DNA from: Spirochaetota bacterium | GTDB lineage: Bacteria > Spirochaetota > UBA4802 > UBA5550 | NCBI GenBank assembly: GCA_003246895.1 | Contig: QKCL01000056.1 | Location: 1-42,396, forward strand | DNA length: 42,396 nt | Reading direction: 5' to 3' | Shown: one piece after another, positions 13,673 through 28,900 of the stretch | Layout: each line of letters opens with the position of its first letter | Position numbering within the stretch: the first letter of the stretch is position 1 | Made by a program: the position numbers and the translations under genes | Notes under the pieces: generated by a model | What the model was told of the DNA's origin: nothing | The model's database searches: none | What the model saw: only the letters and a program-made list of their open reading frames with translations

Positions 13673-14779
13673 TTATTTCCAGGACTGGTAATCCTTTATG
13701 AACGCAAGATCTCTTCTGTTCCTGATAAAGTAAGGTATTCTCCCTGCAAATGTAAACCTTTCGGAAGTCAGTACTCCGCTGTTAAAACCTGTGTTGAATA
13801 TGTCAATTCTTCTGTTTTTGGGAATGTATTTTACCAGCTTCCCATGCTTTAAATGACTTATAATATTGTTGTAAACTGTTCTGTTCAGGGATTCCTTTTC
13901 ATAGGTTATTTCTGAAAGGAGAATTCCATCAACCTCAATGCAGCTTCCTACACCGAATATTGATGGATCAGTCCTACTCTGAAGAAAACTGTTAACCAAT
14001 AGTGAACCTTCATTACCAGTTGCCAGGTCCTGTTTTTTCAGAATTTCCGATGGTGCAGTATCTGAACAGTTGATAATAAGGTCGGCTTTGAATTTTGAAC
14101 TGTCAGTGTGAATGGTGCTGCCTGAAATTTTTTTTATATTCAGATTTTCAAGATAAACTATTTCCCTTTTATTTAATTCATTCATAAACCTGTTAACAGT
14201 GTTCTGAGGTTGCCGAGTCTCTGTTCGGGAATTACCAGACAGGGTAATGTGCATGCTCTTGTTGTTCTTGACGGCAAATTCCCTGAGATTGAGTGCATAT
14301 TCCATGGAATGAAATGATCCGCCAATTATAAAAATTTCAGAAGGAGATTTTTCCGGCAGTGACTTTATTGATTTAATCAGTCCTGAAATATTTGATGCGG
14401 GTTTAATATTTATGATATTGTTTTTTCTGCTGCGGAATTCATCTTTTAATCCGGAACCGAGATTAAGAGAAAGAACATCATATCCTATATTACGCCCTTT
14501 TTCTGTTACAATATATTTACTGCTCCAGTTTATCTCCTTCAGCAGGTCTTCGATGAAAATTCCGCCGTTTTTAATGGTCAGTGTTTTTATGTCTATTCGG
14601 CAGTTCTCTTCACTGTATGTTCCTGAAATCAGCCCAGGTATCATCTCGTAAAAGTAGTGAAACCGGTCCGGATTAATAACGGCTATCTCATATCCCATTT
14701 TGATCATTTCCGGAATTTTTTTGATAGTAAATAGATGACCTCTTCCTGCTCCTGCCAGTATAATTCTTTTCTTTATCAC
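13673..14779 (-). CDS. NDH-2-type FAD/NAD(P) oxidoreductase-like protein
   Basis: The protein has 368 residues with a GTG start that overlaps the stop of the upstream gene (GTGA), so the two are translationally coupled. The N-terminus has the FAD dinucleotide motif LAGAGRGHL (8-16) and the 'INPDRFHYFYEMIPGLISGTYSEE..IDI' block shared with NDH-2-like flavoproteins, including those sometimes fused to SelD. The second dinucleotide site is altered (IIGGSFHSMEYA instead of GxGxxGxExA). The usual GD of the C-terminal FAD motif reads FGVGSCIE, with Ser in place of Asp. So the fold is clear, but NAD(P) and FAD binding may be weakened. No membrane helix is evident. The partner and substrate are unknown; coupling to a cyclic-nucleotide protein suggests a signalling or redox-sensing unit. 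Confidence 0.65.
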   Translation of the reverse strand: MIKKRIILAGAGRGHLFTIKKIPEMIKMGYEIAVINPDRFHYFYEMIPGLISGTYSEENCRIDIKTLTIKNGGIFIEDLLKEINWSSKYIVTEKGRNIGYDVLSLNLGSGLKDEFRSRKNNIINIKPASNISGLIKSIKSLPEKSPSEIFIIGGSFHSMEYALNLREFAVKNNKSMHITLSGNSRTETRQPQNTVNRFMNELNKREIVYLENLNIKKISGSTIHTDSSKFKADLIINCSDTAPSEILKKQDLATGNEGSLLVNSFLQSRTDPSIFGVGSCIEVDGILLSEITYEKESLNRTVYNNIISHLKHGKLVKYIPKNRRIDIFNTGFNSGVLTSERFTFAGRIPYFIRNRRDLAFIKDYQSWK

Positions 14780-16951: not shown

Positions 16952-19900
16952 TTATTTGAGAAGTTTGTCTTTTATCTGAAATTCAGGAGCAACCTTGTCA
17001 ACCTTGACCATTTCAAATCTGTCAATGCTGATGTAGAGGTTTCCGTCCATATCTACGAGTTTCAGTGCATATGTGTTAGTGTCTGCACCGCGCTCGATCT
17101 TTTCAGTGAAGCAGTAGAATTCTTTATCTCTCTTGACCTCACTATAGAACTTCATTCCAGAAATTGTGTAGGGAAGAACAATCTCCGAAGTGTCCACCAT
17201 TTCATAAACTCCGCCGGTCTGGAACATTGAGTCTACTATGATACAGTTTGTCACAAAGTTCGGATCAGTCATTCCCTTGAAGAATTCATGGCTCCCTGAC
17301 TGTCTCATCTTTGTCACAAGCACGTCCTTGTCAAATGATAGGACATCTTCAATGGTTCTGAACGAATTATCCATGAATAGCTTGTGCGGATGATATATGA
17401 GCTCCTGAACATCCCCTTTAACTTCAATGTTTTTGAATTCAGGAATAGTAACTTTCGGCATAGCCTCGTATTTATCAGAGAAACCGTATGTTCCTTCATA
17501 GTGAAGGGTAGGATCTCCCATAACCATTCCTTTAGGATTTTTGAACTGTGAAATGATGTTACACTTAACCGTGCTTCCGTCAACTTTTACAGCACCGATT
17601 TCAAGTTCTTTAGGTCTTCCCTTGAGAATCTTGATTCCGTAAGGAATTCTGAAACCGTCAAGTGAAGTAATCACCTTTCCTTTACCCATGAGAACAGTTG
17701 CAGCTTCCGCCATTGTCTCAATACCTGTTGATCCAAGGAAGATAGGCACATCGAATCTGGCATGGTCATAGAGGAAGAGGTCTTTCTTCAGATCGAGTAC
17801 TCTCGTAAATGACATTGATTTGTCATCCTGTTTAAGTACAGGCCCAAGGAAAGGAGTTTCTTCATTTATGTCAGAGTCTCCGGGGAAGATGTTATCAGGG
17901 TCAAATGATTCTGTGATCCCTGTGAATATCATCTCAGGAGTTTCGCTGTCTCTAAGGTCATCGATGAAGTACTTGATACCTCTGTCAAGAGGAAGAAATT
18001 CAAGACCTCTCTCCTCGAGAACCTTTTTAACTGTTTCATTTGTTGCCATTCCAGCTCCGGCCCATGCTGTCCATGCATAAACTTTGTAGGCTCTGTCTTT
18101 GTGTGCAAGTTTTTCTTTAAGGAGAACCTTGCCGATGAAGTCGTTTGCACATGTATAGCCGATCTGGGCCTCATTACCGAATCTTGCAGTAACAGATGAG
18201 AAGGTAAGGAAGTATTTGTAATCCTTGTCTTTAAGTGCATCAAGGATGTTGTAAATTCCGTATACCTTTGTGTTAAACTCCCTGTTGAATGAATCAAGAG
18301 TCTTCTTCGGAAGAATCTGGCTCAGTTCAACACCCGCAGCGTGAAGGACACCATCTATCTTGTCATATTTGCTCAGGGCATCGCTTATTACTTTAGTGTC
18401 TGATACATCTGTAGCGTGATAGTAAACAGTTGCCTTTGTTTCAAGGTGCTTAACGTTTTCTATTTTCTGCTTAAGCATCATTCTGTATCCAACAGCGTTT
18501 TTGATTTCAAGAGGTTTTGCTCCTGTCATCTTTTCTTTCAGTGAAGCAAGAATCTGGGCTTCTGTTACTCCCGGAGCCTTGAATTCCTCTTCAAGTGTCG
18601 AAAGGTCGCTGTAGTCAAGAATTATAAGCTTAAGGTCCTTATAAGTATTACAAACTTCGTTCATGATTTCGAAGGTAATACCTCCGCCGCCGCCGGAAAC
18701 AACGATTGTGTCTCCGTCTTTTACGAAGCTTCCAGTCTCTTTGTTAGGCTCAATCTTCAGGTTGAGAGTATATTTCTCTCCTTCAGATGTGATACCAGTT
18801 TCAACTCTTCTGTCTCCGGATAGAAGTTCTGTTACATATGCTTTCGCAATTGCATCAGCATTATCTTTGGGCTTGTTCCAGTTGAAGTCCACAATCTTCA
18901 CAAGTGCATCTCTCAGCTCCTTGTTTACAGTCTTCATCATTCCTGAAAGACCTGCAAATACCGGAGTAATCTTGAGTTTTGCATTGTCACTGTACGGGAA
19001 TACAACCGAATCAAAAGACATTGACGTGATGATACTGTCTTTTGTCTTAACGTTTTCAAAGAGTGTGTTTATCATTATGAACATTGTCTTAACATAACGG
19101 TCAAGTGTTTTGAAATCGTTATCCTTGCCGCCGAAGTACATGTTAAGAGGTTCAAGGTGAAGTATACTGTTTATTGATGAATCTTTAGCAACAGCATCTT
19201 TCATCGCCTTTTCTACTGCGTCCATGTCTGTCAGGTCTGCAACAATGTCAGATCCCTTTTCTCCGACTGTTATTACCTTACCGTTAAGAGATTTGATCTC
19301 TTTAATAATCTTCTCTGCGAAACCATTTTTGTCTTTTGTTGCAATGAATGTTTTTCCTGAGAAATCACCGATTGCCTTGCCTATAGCTGTTTTCTTAACA
19401 CCAACTGTAAGCCTTTTTACTCTCTCTTCTTCTGCCGGTGCTGCAGCAGCTGCAGGAGCAGGAGTCGACACAGCCGTTTCTGCAGGAGCCGATGGGGCAG
19501 GGGCAGCAGTTGTGTTTGAAGCAATGTATCCGGCAAGTTTAGCAATTGTGTTCATTTCTGAAAGCTGGAGGTCTTCCGGTACATCAATACCGAAGTTTCC
19601 TGCAACCTTTCCGAAGATTTCGACCTGTTTAACAGTGTCGATTCCAAGATCAGCCTCAAGGTCAAGGTTTTCATCTAGCATGTCAGTAGTGTATCCTGTG
19701 AGCTCTGAGATGATCTCCTTCACTTTAGGAATCATGGAAGCAGGGCTTGCAGCCTGAACAGCAGCCGGTGCAGCTGAAGCCTGAGCTGGAGCGGCAGAGA
19801 CTGTTGTATTTGCGGCAATGTATCCGGCTAGTTTAGCAATTGTGTTCATTTCTGAAAGCTGGAGGTCTTCCGGTACATCAATACCGAAGTTTCCTGCAAC

Positions 19901-22900
19901 CTTTCCGAAGATTTCGACCTGTTTAACAGTGTCGATTCCAAGATCAGCCTCAAGGTCAAGGTTTTCATCGAGCATGTCGGTAGTGTATCCTGTGAGCTCT
20001 GAGATGATCTCCTTCACTTTAGGAATCATGGAAGCAGGGCTTGCGGCCTGAGCAGCAGCCGGTGCAGCTGAAGTCTGAGCAGGAGCTGCAGCGACAGTAG
20101 TGTTCGCGGCAATGAATTCAGCAAGTTTGGCGATTGTATTCATCTGTGAAAGCTGGAGGTCTTCGGGAACATCCATTCCGAAGTTTCCTGCAACCTTTCC
20201 GAAGATCTCAACCTGTTTGACAGTGTCAATGCCAAGGTCTGCCTCAAGGTCCAGGTTTTCATCGAGCATATCAGTAGTGTATCCTGTGAGCTCTGAGATG
20301 ATCTCCTTAACTTTTGGAACCATGGATGCAGGGCTTGCGGCCTGAACAGCAGCCGGTGCAGCTGAAGCCTGAGCAGGAGCGGCTGCGACTGTTGTATTTG
20401 CAGCGATGAATTCAGCAAGTTTGGCGATTGTGTTCATCTGTGAAAGCTGGAGGTCTTCGGGAACATCCATTCCGAAGTTACCGGCAACTTTTCCGAAAAT
20501 CTCCACCTGCTTGACAGTGTCTATTCCAAGATCAGCCTCAAGGTCAAGGTTTTCATCTAGCATGTCAGTAGTGTATCCTGTGAGCTCAGCAATGATCTCC
20601 TTAACTTTTGGAACCATGGAAGCAGGGCTTGCGGCCTGAACAGCAGCCGGTGCAGCTGCAGCCTGAGCAGGAGCGGTTGCGACTGTTGTGTTCGCGGCAA
20701 TGTATTCACCGAGTTTTGCAATTGTGTTCATTTCGGAGAGTTTCAGGTCTTCAGGAACAGCTACGCCGAAGTTACCGGCAACTTTTCCGAATATCTCCAC
20801 CTGCTTGACGGTGTCGATACCAAGGTCAGCCTCAAGGTCCAGGTTTTCATCGAGCATGTCAGTAGTGTATCCTGTGAGCTCAGCAATGATCTCCTTAACT
20901 TTTGGAATCATGGACGCAGGGCTTGCGGACTGAACAGCAGCCGGTGCAGCTGAAGCCTGAGCAGGAGCGGCTGCGACTGTTGTGTTCGCGGCAATGTATT
21001 CACCGAGTTTTGCAATTGTGTTCATTTCGGAGAGTTTCAGGTCTTCAGGAACAGCTACGCCGAAGTTACCGGCAACTTTTCCGAAAATCTCCACCTGCTT
21101 AACAGTGTCTATTCCAAGATCAGCCTCAAGGTCCAGGTTTTCATCTAGCATGTCAGTAGTGTATCCTGTGAGCTCAGCAATGATCTCCTTAACTTTTGGA
21201 ACCATTGATGCAGGGCTTGCGGCCTGAACAGCAGCCGGTGCAGCTGAAGCATGTACAGGAGCCGGCTGAACTGCAGGTGTACCCGGTTCTGCATCTATGC
21301 AGAGTGTATTGTTTCTTATTACAAGCTGCGGATTCTCCTTGTGTGCGATTCTCTGGAGCCAGCTGTAATATTTTGTATTGTTGCTTGTTGAATTCTCCTG
21401 GAGTCTTCTGATGAAGAGCATTCCGAAGTGAGATCCGAATCCGGCAGCAAAATGGAGTCCATACTCATAGTCTCCGCCTGTACCGCGATTGAATTTCAGG
21501 TCTGCAAATTCATCTGGGATCTCTCTCAGGTTTGCAATTGGAGGAGCCTGTTTCATCTGAAGGGCCTTAACCATTACCGGGTCTTCAATACCTGCACCAA
21601 GTGTATGGCCTGTGTAACCCTTTGTATTTGTAATAGTGATGTCTCTGTACTCGCCAGGGAATGTCTTCTTAAGAGCTTTCACTTCAGAGTCTGCACTTCC
21701 TCCCCTTGCCGGAGTATATGTCTCGTGAGACATGAAGAGTAGTTTCTTTGTGTACTGGCTTCTGTCAAGGTTGTGACGTTTTTCAGCCTTTCTGATGAAG
21801 TCGATCATAATATCAGAGACATGATCTACGTCAATTTTTGTGGGGTGGAATGCACTGTTTCCAATAAATGTACCCAGAATTTCAGCCTGTCCGTTCATAC
21901 CCCTGTCGTTAATTACGTCAGATCTTTCAATAACCATACCCACTGCACCGGCACCGATAATCATACCGTTTCTGTTTTTGTCAAATGGCAGTGCCGCTTC
22001 GGTTACAACCTTTTTAATAGTTGCAGCACCCACAGAAAGGAATCCTGAACCTACCCATGGAGTCTTGTACTTGGAAGTAGCAGATTCAGCACCGATGATG
22101 ATAACACGTTCACATCTGCCGGTTCTGATCCAGTCTTCAGCCATGCCCACTGCATGTGTAGTAGAAGCGCATGCACCCATTATCTGTGTAGCAGGGCCTT
22201 TAGCCTTGATTAACTGTGCAAACTGCGGAGCTCCTATCTGTGAAATATTAGTCACAAAGGATCTGTCGAATTTGAATTCCCTGTACTCCTGTTTTCTTTC
22301 CTTGATTTTGAAGAACCATTCTGTGATTTTTTCCTTAACAGCCTTGTCTTTTACAGACTCAAGAATGGCGTAGTAGACATCTTCAATTTCTTCATATGGA
22401 TTTACAAAGAATTTGTTATAGTAGAATTTGTTCATCTTGGAAATCAGTGTTTCCCATCCGGAGAAGAGTGATGTAAAGATTACACCGGTTGTATTCTGCA
22501 TCTCTTCAGGGAGGCTGAATCCGTCAGGAATCTTTTTGCCGGTTGATGTTGTCTTGTAGCTGAGAACAAGAGGAATATTTGCATCCTTAAGTGCTTCGAT
22601 ACCCGCTGCAATACCAAGAGAAATGTCCAGGTCCAGTTGAGCATCAATATCATACTCGTTCTTTAGGTTGAAGTGGCCAAGTCTTCCGGCAAGCTGAATG
22701 ACCTCGTCCTTATCTGTGATTTCAACAAACTGGGCAGAACCGTCCGGTTTTTTGAATACCTTTGTGATATTCATGGCCACCATTCTTTCCTTGTCCTCTT
22801 CTGTTAGAGGCTCAATCATGTTTGTTCCGCCGATGATTTTGTCGAAGTTGGAAGCATCGAATACCTTGTTTGCAGTACCCGGAAGTCCGATTGCAGTACC

Positions 22901-25900
22901 TGCAATGACTACTTTTTCAGTTGAGAAGTTGAAGTCCTCAAGAGCTTTGAGTGCTTTTTCTCTCTTCTCCTTCTGATATTCCTTGAAAAGTATTTCCTTT
23001 ATTTTGTCATCGTTACTGTTCAGAAAGTCCTGGAATCCTCTGTCATCAGACTGCGCTGAAATTGAAACAGAAGCATCAGCCTGTTTTGCAGCAGCTGCAG
23101 GTGCCGCATGAACCGGTACTGCTACAGGTACAGACTGTTTCACTGCAGGAGCTGCAGCGGTTTGTACCTGGCCTGCTGCCTGAATTCTTCCCTTTGATGC
23201 AAGGTAGTCAAGGAATGCCTGAAGTGATTCCTTCTGACCCTTTTTAGGTTCCTGGGAAGCCATTGCTGTAACTTCATTGATGTCTATCTTTCCAAGGAGG
23301 TTAGCAAGGAGTTTCTGAGGTCCCACCTCAATGTATTCCCGTACTCCCGCCTTATCAAGGAACTTGATTGATTTGATAAATTCAACAGGCAGAGTAAGCT
23401 GCTTTGTAAGGAGTTCCTTGATCTTCGCCTCATCCTGCGGATATGGTGTTGCAGTAACGTTTGAGATTACCTTTGTATAATCCACATTGTTGAATTTCAG
23501 AGTTTTGAGGAACTCATGGAATTTCTTTGATGCTTCCTCAAGGAGCGGTGTATGGAATGCACCTGACAGAGGAAGTTTTCTGAAGGAGATATCCTTACTG
23601 GTCAGGTACTCGCAGAACTGATTGATTTCAGCTGATTTTCCTGAAATTGCAGTCTGGCTTTCGCTGTTTTTGTTTGCCACCCAGACTCCTGAAATTCCGG
23701 ATTCCTTTATTATGCTGTTTGACTCATCTGCACTTTTGAATATTACCATTATCTGGCCCGGAATCCTGTCGAAGTCCTCCTTCATGAGCTCTGAACGTCT
23801 GATGATGAGTCTCAGTGTGTCCTCGAAGCTTAGTATTCCTGCACAGAAGAGGGCAGAACACTCTCCAAGGCTGTGACCAATAAAGTAATCAGGATCCTTA
23901 AATCCCTGTCTTTTTATTATTTCGTAAATAACTGCAGAGGCAAGGTATATTGCCGGCTGTGTGTTCTCTGTGAGATTGAGTTTCTTGTCCTGGTTGAACA
24001 TTATTTCAAGAAGAGAATATCCTCTCATCTCCCTGAATACTTTTTCACCCCTGTCAAAGTATTCCTTAACAAGTGCGTTTGAGTTATAGAGATCCTGCAT
24101 CATGTATGGGTACTGTGCACCCTGGCCTGTTACAAGAACTGCAAATGTTCCGGGCTTTGGATTTGCGACCTCTTCAGTAAAATCGCGTAGGTCATCAGCG
24201 GATTGAAGCTGTACATTTCCGATCCATTCAGGAAGTGTACTTATGGTCGCGTGACCTGCAGTTCCGCCGAGTCCTGCAAAGTTTATTCCCAGATGCATTG
24301 AACCCTTGGCTTTTGAAACAGCTTCCTTAAGCGGTGCAATCTTTGAATCCTTGCCTATGATGGAAGTCTTTTCATCATAGCTGAAGTTCGGAAGAATGGT
24401 TCTGTTTTTGCTCATGAGAATGAGTTTTGTAAGGGCAACAGACGGGTTTGCAGACCTGAAGTAGCCGGTTTCGCTCTTTATATTGCCTGCATGCACAGAC
24501 TGGCTGAAACTCTGGTCAATTGCGTCCCTTTCCCAGCTGTCAACGAGAGGGTGAGATGCTGCAAAAAGGTCAACATATTCGATGCTGTCTTTTCTTACGG
24601 GTATTTTGCTGTAATGCTTTTTAATTACCTTGCTCAGTGATGATGTTGTGGGGCTCAGAATGTTTTCATTTGCATAGTTGGAGAATGTTGCGCCGTTGAG
24701 CTCAGCCATAACATTCATTTTGTTTTCACGTGCCTGTTTGTATGTTGTGAGAACCAGTATGGCGCATCCTTCACTCATTACAAGTCCCTGTGCATCCTTG
24801 TCGAAGAACTTGTTATCTCCGCCGGGATTCAGAACCTTGATTCTGTCGTATGCCTTGAGTCTTGCAGGGCTCAGGTTCGTGTCAACACCGCCGCATAGAA
24901 TAAAATCTGAATGGCCGCATTTAAGCTCCTTCATGGCAAGAAAAACCGCTACACCCGATGAAGCGCATTCAGCCTCAACGGTATAGTTCAGTGCATTGAG
25001 GTTGTAGAAGTTGGCCATCCTTCCTGTTACAATGTTGGTTAGAAGTCCCGGAGTTGTATCCTCGTTGTTTTTCGGATATCTCGCCCTGATCTGTTCTTCA
25101 AGTTTTGCAGAAATTGTATCTGCCAGAGTCTTGTCGACACCCTCTGTTGAATTAATGATCTTTCTTAGATAGGGAGTTCTGACCCTGAAAATATTTTCAT
25201 AGTGTTTTTCACTTGTTGTGGTACCCACGATTGCTCCTATTCGGTTACCGTTTTGAGTGAGAAGATCCTTTATGCCTGCCTGTTCAATTGCCTGCTTCGA
25301 TGCCTCAAGTGCAAAAATCTGGTTTCTGTCAATAGACATGGCAGCTGCAGGAGGTATTCTGTACTGCAGGTTGTTGAATGTAAAGTCATGGAGAATGCCT
25401 GACTTTATTTTGGGCAGTTTAAATGCCGGATCTTTTTCATTTATATATGATTCTATATGGAATCTGGATTCAGGGATTTCTGAAATGACACTTTTTCCAT
25501 TTTTGATATTATTCCAGAATTCATCAATGGAAGTTGCACCTGGCAGCATTACTCCAAGACCGGCCACAACTATTCGGTTATCATTGAAGTTGTAGTTCAG
25601 ATCGCTGAAAATTTTTCTCTGAAGAGGTTTATAGCTTTCAGGACTGTAATCGGAAAGCACCAGGTGATAGTTTATTCCACCGAATCCGAATGAACTGATT
25701 GCGGCATATCTTGCCTTTCCGCTTTCTTTCTGCCACTCTGCAGCATCTGCTATTACACCGATTGATGTGCCGTCAAAGTTGAATCTCGGCGAAAGTTTGG
25801 CAAACTGTCCGTTTGGAGGAAGTGTTTTCTTGTCAAGAGCCATTGTGGCTTTGATGAAACCTGCCATACCTGCTCCGCCAAGGAGGTGACCGATTTGTGA

Positions 25901-28900
25901 TTTTACGGAACTTACACCGATTTTTGCCTTGCTCTTGCCGTAGAACTTTTTAATTGTTTCAACTTCAGCATAGTCTCCCATGAGTGTTGAAGTTCCATGA
26001 GCTTCAATGTATTCAATTTCGTCAGGACTTACTTTGTCCTTCATGTTTTCATATGCACGCTGGAGAGCTGTCATCTGACCTTCAGATTTTGGAGCAGCAA
26101 TTGCCTTTCCCTTTCCGTCAGAACTTGCTCCGACACCTTTTATGATTGCATGAATTTTATCTCCATCTCTAAGAGCATCCTTGACTCTTTTCAGAACAAC
26201 AGCTCCTGCACCTTCACCAAGGACAAAACCTCCTGCGCGTTCATCGAAGGGGAATGAACCATCAGCTGACAGTGCACCCATGCTTGCAAAACCAATGAAC
26301 GTCTCAGGACTCATGAGACTCTGAAGACCCCCTGTTACAACCATGTCCGCTTCACCCATGAGAAGGTCAATTACGGCATTGTCTACAGCTGTAAATGAAG
26401 TAGCGCATGCCGCATCCACTGTATAGGCTGCACCGTGTGCACCAATATGTTTTGCAATACGTGCTGCTTCGACGTTAATTGCCGCAGCGTCGGGATGTTT
26501 AGGCTCAGGCGCATTTGCAAGTGTGTTTTTCAGGTTTTCGAGAATTTTGTTTTTGTCATCTTCTGAAAGATTTTTGAATTCTTCAACCTGATCAAGATAA
26601 TGCTTCATTTCGGGATAGTAGTATTTTAAAATCAGGTCATCACTCAGTTCATTGCTGAGGCAGCTTCCAATAATAACAGATGTCCTGTTTCCCGGGATCA
26701 TCTTTTCGTCTTTATTGTATCCGGCATTTTCAACAGCCTGTACTGCTGCTTCAAGAATCATCTTCTGGCTTCTTGACATTACCAGAGATTCCTCTTTTTT
26801 ATATCCGAATTTTTTGAAATCGAACTTGTAGTCTTTAATTGTTGCTGAAATTTCAGTGTATGATTTATCTTCTGCTTTCTTGTCCTTGTCAAAGTAAAGA
26901 GAACTGTCAAATCTGTCCTGGGGAACAACATCTATTGAGTACTTTTTATCAAGGATGTTGTTCCAGAAAGTGTCAGTATCAGGAGCATCGGGATATACAC
27001 AGCCGATACCGATTATTGCTACTTCATCATTCATCTCGCATTGAGGAGAGGTGAATACTTCAAGTTCGTTCAGCTTTCTGTGCAGTTCAGCTTTGAGGTC
27101 GATTATTTTTGAATGTATATCTTTTATGGTAATTACTTCGTTGTGAAATGCTATGGAGTCACCGGTCATGTAGTTTCCGCGCTGGAACTGTTCCTCATTA
27201 TTGAGTTTCTGAAGGGTTATATTGCCGTCTTCACCTTTCACAGGGGTAAATCCCTTTCCTGCAATCAGAAGCGCACCGATGTTGTTCTTCTCAAATGCCT
27301 CTTTTCTGTCTTTCAGAGACATTCCCTGCTTTATTCTTTCCTGCTCTTCCTGAATTGTCCTCAGAGAGAAAGGTGATTCAATAGTTCTGGAGGAGAGGCC
27401 CACAGAGTTACCCATTACAGTTGTTGTTGTAGGTTTCAGCATTACGTCCCTGTAAAGCTTCTGAATAGCCCCTGTCTCAACAATTTCTTCTGTAAACAGA
27501 TATGGAGTTCCAAGCTGAACACCTATCTTCATTCCCTTGCTTGCAAGGATTGATGTCATACCTGAAATAAAGTGAGATGAGTGGCATGAAGAAATTCCCC
27601 CTGCAAAGATCATGGTATGACAGCTCAGGTTATCCTGACCAAGACTCATGAATGCCTCAATAGCCTTTTCCCATAGAACCATGCTTGTGAGAGTACCGAT
27701 GTGACCGCCTGCTTCATTACCTTCGAAGATAAATCTTGTACAGCTGTTCTTTATGGCGTTTTCAAGCATCTGTATTGAAGGAGTATGGAGATATGTCTTT
27801 ACTCCATTTTTTTCCAGCTCATTTACCTGTGCAGGAATACCTCCGGCAAAGAGGGCAAATGGGGCCTTATATTTTTTTGCAAGGTCAATGTGTTCCTTTG
27901 CGCACTTGTTGAATGCTTCAATCCCCACAAGTCCGGCGCCGAATCTTGAAACTTTTTCAGATCCCTTTTTTAGAATGTCCTCTGCGAGGTGAGTTGGAAG
28001 GCTGCCCAGTGCAAAGAAGGGGAGGGCTCCCTGTTCATTTACAAGTTTAGCAAATTCCGCAGTATCACTTACATTAGCCATGGGACCCTGAATTATCGGG
28101 TATTTTGTACCATGTTCAAGAGCCAGGGCTGTATCAGCCTTCATGGGATCAAATTCATCAACGGCGGCAATATATGAACCAACATTTGCAAAGAGTTCAT
28201 TTATCATGCCCTTTACTGTAGAGGAATGCCTTGCAAAGTGTTTAGCAAAAATACCGTCCTGTCCCATGTATACAAGGGCCTGAAGGGCCTGAACGGAACT
28301 GTCATTTACAAAGTTGATATTCTTTTTTATTTCATCATAGAGCTTCTTGTCTGATGCTTCACTTTTATCGAGGCCCGCCTCAGTTTCTTTCAGGTCCTTG
28401 ATAATTTTAGTGCCGAGTTTTTTGAAGAAGCTGTAGCTTACTCCCATGTATCTGCCGACAATCGCTGAATCTCCTTCATCGAGAGTCCTGATGAGAGCCT
28501 TGAAGTTATCCGTCACTGGACAGTCATCTGCCAGATAGAGCTGGTTATCAAGGACGATACCTGACGCACCTGCAGCAAACATACCGGCAGATGTATGCAT
28601 TCCCACACCGCCGTGTACAAAAACAGGCAGATCCGACTCTTTGAGGTACCACTGCATGAGGACAAATGAGGTAATGTTTGAAACCTTTCCCGGTCCCTCA
28701 ATACCCTTGACTATAATCGCATCGGGAGAGAGCTTCTCGATCTTTTCCAGTATGCCGACATCAGTAGCTTCTATAAAGAGTTTTGCATCACCGCTGTGTA
28801 CTGATACATTGTCAAGTTCTTCAGGATAAAAGTATGTAAGTATAATGGCATTAAGATTTACTGCTGGGTTTTCCTTTATGTAACTGAGTATCTCTCCGTT

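Follow-up and report, generated by a model that had tools for sequence, protein, structure and literature searches.

Can an acyl carrier protein (ACP) hold its 4'-phosphopantetheine arm on a threonine? The question is raised by contig QKCL01000056.1 of a Spirochaetota bacterium (assembly GCA_003246895.1), all 42,396 nucleotides of which were analysed (the window), and in particular by a large gene for a synthase resembling the iterative polyunsaturated fatty acid (PUFA) synthases and fatty acid synthases (FAS). The six tandem ACPs of this protein all read LGIDTVKQVE, with threonine at the attachment residue of carrier proteins, which is taught as an invariant serine. On the evidence of sequence comparisons and structural models, we put at roughly 85% the probability that the six ACPs are working carriers of a PUFA/FAS-like iterative synthase, the threonine taking the arm. 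The Sfp-type phosphopantetheinyl transferase (PPTase) encoded upstream would transfer the arm from CoA to the threonine hydroxyl, and malonyl and acyl chains would then ride on the Thr-bound arm through the acyltransferase (AT), ketosynthase (KS), ketoreductase (KR), dehydratase (DH) and enoyl reductase (ER) domains. We infer the Thr-O-phosphopantetheine bond, its making by the window PPTase and a lipid or polyketide product from these comparisons.

Threonine at the attachment position

All six DTVKQ motifs lie in frame within a single open reading frame (ORF; Table 1), and both the shared LGIDTVKQVE and the codon usage reported in the initial annotation (ACT in most units, ACC in unit 2) are confirmed, with ACT five times and ACC once. 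The array is where that annotation placed it, although the proposed limits (19493-21211) are slightly shifted from those of the tandem repeat. A degenerate DNA pattern for DTVKQ gives six matches in the window against 0 expected from 100 shuffles, and the same pattern applied to the whole genome finds six matches, all inside the array. Each unit scores above the cut-off of the Pfam PP-binding family (PF00550; 35.2-37.7 bits against 20.8), even though the serine that marks PF00550 carriers is a threonine in 6/6 units. Because the units are 95% identical at the protein level, they amount to six copies rather than six independent observations; the independent evidence for threonine is its conservation in other phyla.

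The best sequence match in the PDB, the tandem ACPs of PigH, aligns a serine to the window threonine in both PigH domains. An AlphaFold model of the ACP (mean predicted local distance difference test score, pLDDT, 88.0) has the helical ACP fold, and its helix II (42-56) opens with the attachment residue, the threonine being residue 1 of that helix. The model matches solved ACPs with Z up to 11.6, and the AcpS-ACP complex 4dxe heads the list. An alignment had been named beforehand as the place where another serine might come to light at the attachment site; in that of 35 diverse Thr- and Ser-type ACPs, threonine takes the serine position, and no alternative serine is found in the invariant columns (G, E, L, G, D, K, E). 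In 318 distinct ACPs of the family, a set that is biased towards threonine and from which two further rows were left out as false alignments, the residue at the site is threonine in 304 and serine in 14, and nothing else. That only serine replaces threonine is as expected if the hydroxyl is used.

Distribution of the threonine motif

Other large bacterial synthases do carry similar DTVKQ motifs, as the initial annotation suggested: a pattern scan of contigs verified them and showed that archaea have them too. The pattern G-x-D-T-V-K-Q-x-E matched at least 117 contig stretches, and lineages among the matches listed include Chloroflexi, Elusimicrobia, Acidobacteria, Myxococcales, Desulfobacteraceae, Actinobacteria, Spirochaetes, Poseidoniales, Heimdallarchaeota and Thermoplasmatales. 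Over at least 258 motif copies in these stretches, the threonine codon is ACG 127 times, ACC 91, ACA 22 and ACT 18 times; the set was chosen by a threonine pattern and hence speaks to codon freedom, not to the frequency of threonine. This recurrence across unrelated genomes, with all four threonine codons, rules out a sequencing or assembly error and bears out the earlier view that threonine is fixed. One DTVKQ motif stretch is also found on an IMG/VR viral contig (L134), which may be mis-binned or host-derived.

Patterns open to both residues give 34 threonine and six serine sites in 13 matched genomes among 247 of the window's phylum (having dropped G018, with a stop codon, and G190, whose S-M site was not verified as an ACP), and 35 threonine sites and one serine site among 100 genomes of Anaerolineae, the class of G251. 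The contrast drawn earlier with PUFA-type ACPs, which read LGIDSIKRVE, is upheld in G028, G244, G249 and G250. Moreover, three of 15 chosen genomes (G249, Desulfocicer vacuolatum; G250; G260) have a Thr array alongside a Ser array, as has G028, so the two kinds coexist in one cell. Judged from the sequences, the oddity is a property of the whole synthase family and not of the window array alone. We also lean, with rather less assurance, towards a wider view in which natural threonine phosphopantetheinylation would be ancient and spread across many bacterial phyla and several archaeal lineages, the cognate PPTases tolerating or preferring threonine.

The threonine sites travel with V and Q (34/34 in the phylum set, 35/35 in Anaerolineae) and the PUFA-type serine sites with I and R/K. 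A strict coupling of T-V and S-I, as compensation for one methyl group, at first appeared perfect, with 34/34 T-V and 6/6 S-I in the phylum and 35/35 T-V and one S-I in Anaerolineae; a set including 30 Poseidoniales genomes gave 72 T-V and eight S-I (one with X beside the motif). The rule is broken by the Heimdall-class arrays, with 36 T-V, eight T-I and two S-I (hand count over 19 distinct loci), and G258 has one S-V, leaving a tendency only. The T-V figure of 303/304 in the family ACP set is inflated by the search pattern.

Natural exchange of serine and threonine

In a tree of 38 synthases built on KS1 and KSC, the latter being the ketosynthase immediately ahead of the ACP array, the four Poseidoniales synthases with serine group together (100/100), nested with Thr synthases in an eight-row clade (100/99), which in turn lies inside the Thr synthases of Poseidoniales. 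This tree kept 922 of 2135 columns, and the KSC slices of L226 and L218 were overlong through weak extra matches; in a tree of KS1 only, the Ser rows again fall inside the Thr Poseidoniales, with weaker values (Ser group 80/54; around it 94/90 and 81/89). The Ser ACPs of Poseidoniales read DSIKQAE in every readable unit, keeping the K-Q-A-E of the family. In addition, the ACP between AT and KSC of a synthase from Deltaproteobacteria UBA2385 (L127, genome G250) has serine where the same slot in L124 has threonine, the two domains being 62% identical over 69 residues, and the serine-bearing protein also carries two Thr ACPs and a fused PPTase. A 3.3-Mb contig of G436 encodes a Ser-Thr-Ser array next to a fused PPTase. 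As the trees and motifs are read here, serine and threonine have been exchanged at the attachment site during evolution.

Archaeal genomes with threonine carriers only

Some archaea offer a natural test. Of the 60 Poseidoniales genomes searched, 37 have a PPTase (PF01648), in each case a single one, and 38 have a PF00550 carrier; both are present in 35 and neither in 20 (Fisher p 8e-11, in a test that treats the genomes as independent although they are related). The 38 carrier-bearing genomes divide into 34 with Thr-only and four with Ser-only arrays, the domains having been read in 30 genomes and the other eight assigned from listed motif matches, and in 33 of the 34 with threonine alone a single PPTase was detected, for which Thr carriers are the only substrates to be seen. 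Two matches in 422-residue frames were set aside: the weak PF00550 match of G247 (C51) is a chance match within a phosphoglycerate kinase frame, and that of G302, of the same length and position, was not read. Since G263 is essentially one 2.06-Mb contig, incompleteness does not explain the absence of Ser carriers from that genome. The PPTase lies within the synthase locus in 17/19 Poseidoniales loci. PUFA-like synthases with carrier arrays, and in most cases with an adjacent PPTase (L217, L295-L312), occur in about two thirds of the Poseidoniales sampled.

The Heimdall genome G253 has only two carriers, both with threonine, and its only PPTase forms the C-terminal domain of the 3574-residue protein that bears them. 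A fused PPTase is found in 7/7 Heimdall-class synthases examined (G253 and six more). These loci (L218, L344-L349) encode single proteins of about 3,300-3,600 residues with KS, AT, KSC, ACPs, KR and fused PPTase, most of them also with ER and DH, an arrangement that is striking for archaea.

The neighbouring PPTase

The Pfam score of the window PPTase is modest (Table 1). Its model (pLDDT 84.8) has the two-subdomain fold and the metal-binding and KE motifs of Sfp-type enzymes, matches the complex of Sfp with CoA and a carrier (4mrt_A) with Z 19.5, and keeps the D-x-E and KEA motifs in alignment; on the strength of this model, the protein is an intact Sfp-type enzyme. Fold, D-x-E and KE motifs are common to the Sfp-type structures 4mrt and 2cg5, whereas identity to these is 19-21% over the aligned part and the window enzyme is predicted to act on threonine. 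A PDB sequence search with the window PPTase gave no match at E 0.01. It is 32% identical to the PPTase of G030 and 26% identical to that of G016, both genomes having the same array type. A search for the PPTase in viral contigs gave no match.

We sought a PPTase residue that discriminates threonine from serine. One column in Poseidoniales has Q in 27/27 Thr-type and S in 3/3 Ser-type proteins, L253 being assigned to the latter by likeness only, as its genome has no detected carrier. This column is not general, and the candidate was rejected; the window PPTase has M there, as presumably does Sfp.

Alternative explanations

Several observations weigh against threonine as the site of the arm. 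The support is comparative, and in E. coli the ACP variant S36T is reported as unmodified, which means that threonine is not accepted by every PPTase. In Poseidoniales, G268 and G315 have a PPTase only, and G262, G289 and G292 have a carrier and no Pfam PPTase match. The PPTase of G262 was found beside its synthase with a narrower model, which illustrates how a sub-threshold PPTase or carrier-like domain could escape Pfam. Stand-alone Ser carriers are present in some other Heimdall-class genomes, so the archaeal test is clean only where such carriers are absent, and the archaeon G258 encodes a serine-bearing ACP next to a KS. Its contig C43 (L313) carries a second, short KSC-ACP fragment reading DSVTQVE alongside the six-Thr synthase of the same archaeon. 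Finally, the window genome encodes three Ser carriers (L195, L196, L203) and one detected PPTase. AcpS was not seen in a PF01648 search of this genome (completeness 95.7%), and either the window PPTase serves both residues or AcpS is missing from the assembly.

Were the Thr ACPs armless scaffolds or decoys, with the chains riding on a Ser ACP elsewhere, AcpP for example, the E. coli S36T variant, reported as unmodifiable and dead (PMC3340395), and the Ser carriers elsewhere in the window genome would be accounted for. We regard this as very improbable, given that a PPTase is retained next to the Thr array, or fused to it, in 33 Poseidoniales genomes and in Heimdall G253, none of which has a detectable Ser carrier; nor would unarmed spacers be expected to hold D-T-V-K-Q so strictly or to switch to serine. 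The initial annotation had left the choice between a transferase that accepts threonine and an array that works without the arm: the former is strongly supported by the Thr-only archaea with a single PPTase, the fused PPTases and the exchange of serine and threonine, and the latter is disfavoured. Attachment of the arm to another residue of the ACP or linker is less credible still, even though conserved serines (S18, S21, S80) lie towards the N-terminal end of each window unit, as no serine is conserved family-wide, the canonical motif accounts for the invariant columns around the site, and in the Thr-biased set threonine is swapped for serine only.

Two further explanations accept the arm on threonine and differ on what follows. 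A general host PPTase might modify the Thr arrays, the neighbouring PPTase being coincidental or meant for other carriers, and it is true that several bacteria with Thr arrays have two or three PPTases and that G249 and G260 lack a PF01648 match on the Thr-array contig. The fusions in all the Heimdall-class synthases examined, as well as in G250 and L124, the single PPTase of Poseidoniales and the sole PF01648 match in the window genome make this unlikely. The residues might instead be interchangeable for any promiscuous Sfp-type PPTase, with threonine a neutral difference of no consequence, as natural exchange in both array types and the mixed arrays of G436 and G250 with a PPTase in cis would allow. 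We find this possible but doubtful, since threonine, across a very broad range of organisms, is close to fixed, uses all four codons and travels with V and Q, whereas a neutral site should often drift back to serine. If threonine accepts the arm and does matter, it may, as a speculation, prevent AcpS from recognizing the arrays and in this way keep them apart from housekeeping fatty-acid synthesis.

Relation to known systems

An identical replacement of serine by threonine at this position has been described in E. coli AcpP, although as a laboratory mutant: S36T, a negative control, is reported not to be modified by 4'-phosphopantetheine and to fail to complement loss of acpP (PMC3340395). Other sources report that acpP S36T fails as a suppressor (PMC9456370) and that the variant loses its interaction with IscS (PMC13343975). 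Because S36T serves as an unmodifiable control, a natural threonine family would surprise specialists.

By domain order, the closest described system is the Type R group of secondary lipid synthases (Shulse and Allen 2011), which combine a pfaA-like KS-MAT-CLF-ACP(3-6)-KR protein with a PPTase gene and were reported from Acidobacteria, Elusimicrobium and Roseiflexus (PMC3098273). The window synthase likewise has KS, AT and a second KS/CLF before three to six ACPs, followed by KR, and the Type R PPTase motifs P1a (xGxP) and P1b' (hShxH) are readable in the window PPTase as KGAP and ISISH. In contrast to the Type R proteins as described there, the window synthase also has an ER at its N-terminus, a further CLF-like KS and a DH at its C-terminus, and the adjacent PPTase gene is upstream rather than downstream. 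Type R is defined by domain order, and neither 'threonine' nor 'serine' occurs in the main text of that paper. A locus titled Elusimicrobium minutum (L056/L229) encodes a PPTase and a synthase of the order KS-AT-KSC-ACP4-KR-DH, whose four ACPs read DTVKQAE; with respect to Type R, the KS tree placed only a metagenome-assembled genome titled E. minutum.

The window synthase also resembles the PUFA synthase PfaA in that a single polypeptide combines KS, AT, tandem ACPs and KR, and its score against TIGR02813 (PfaA), 1005.7 bits, narrowly misses the curated cut-off of 1010.1. The PUFA-type ACPs (G028, G244, G249, G250) read DSIKR, however, whereas those of the window read DTVKQ, and the mapped PUFA-type synthases L221 and L228 lack a KSC before the array, which the window synthase has.

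In the open-licence PubMed Central literature, we found no report of a threonine attachment site in this synthase family and no occurrence of the string LGIDTVKQ; DTVKQ appeared only in unrelated papers. A large natural threonine-based family, if real, would widen the invariant-serine rule and account for how some archaea operate PUFA-like synthases with only one PPTase. It would also provide a carrier with a matching transferase, a pair that might function independently of host enzymes. Where annotation insists on serine, such carriers would be wrongly labelled inactive.

Domain organization and gene neighbourhood

Domain searches give the order ER - KS1 - CLF-like KS - AT - KSC - six ACPs - KR - DH for the window synthase (Table 1). 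The KSC domain is common to the Thr-ACP synthases mapped.

Table 1. Positions in the window of the synthase, its domains and attachment-site codons, and the PPTase.
Feature	Position	Strand	Basis or remark
Multidomain synthase, ~4,050 residues	16952-29107	-	domain searches; one ORF 16952-29212, likely start ATG 29107
ER domain, FabK/nitronate monooxygenase-like	27191-28213	-	TIGR03151, residues 335-594; present in relatives
KS1, Cys motif DAACATS	25781-27043	-	PF00109/PF02801, residues 695-1102
CLF-like second KS	24311-25618	-	PF00109 (three stretches); hand-set boundaries; close relatives only
AT domain, motif GHSLG	23276-24148	-	PF00698, residues 1660-1937
KSC, third KS (GACAST), immediately ahead of ACP array	21311-22813	-	domain search
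Six tandem ACPs, all LGIDTVKQVE	19509-21268	-	period 294 bp, 6.0 copies, 91% matches
Attachment-site Thr codon ACT, ACP unit 1	21104-21106	-	
Attachment-site Thr codon ACC, ACP unit 2	20810-20812	-	
Attachment-site Thr codon ACT, ACP unit 3	20516-20518	-	
Attachment-site Thr codon ACT, ACP unit 4	20222-20224	-	
Attachment-site Thr codon ACT, ACP unit 5	19928-19930	-	
Attachment-site Thr codon ACT, ACP unit 6	19634-19636	-	
KR domain	18011-19423	-	PF08659
DH domain (PS-DH)	16961-17893	-	PF14765
Sfp-type PPTase, motifs IDVE ... FTIKEAFMK	29320-30063	-	PF01648 31.6 bits, cut-off 25; upstream of synthase

When eight relatives' loci were compared, the only conserved neighbour besides the PPTase was the fragment at 31-660, which matched two loci and which we take to be acyl-CoA dehydrogenase-like; no other neighbour that might point to the product was conserved in the loci compared. 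A DUF6909 protein (PF21850; 30416-32083, minus strand) adjoins the PPTase and was not found in those eight loci. At 34260-37270 and 13673-14779 (minus strand), the window also encodes a disulfide oxidoreductase with a match, below cut-off, to TIGR03169 ('Nterm_to_SelD') and genes that are, we assume, SelD-like, cysteine desulfurase-like and TusA-like; together with the TIGR03169 match they suggest, as putatively assigned, selenium metabolism.

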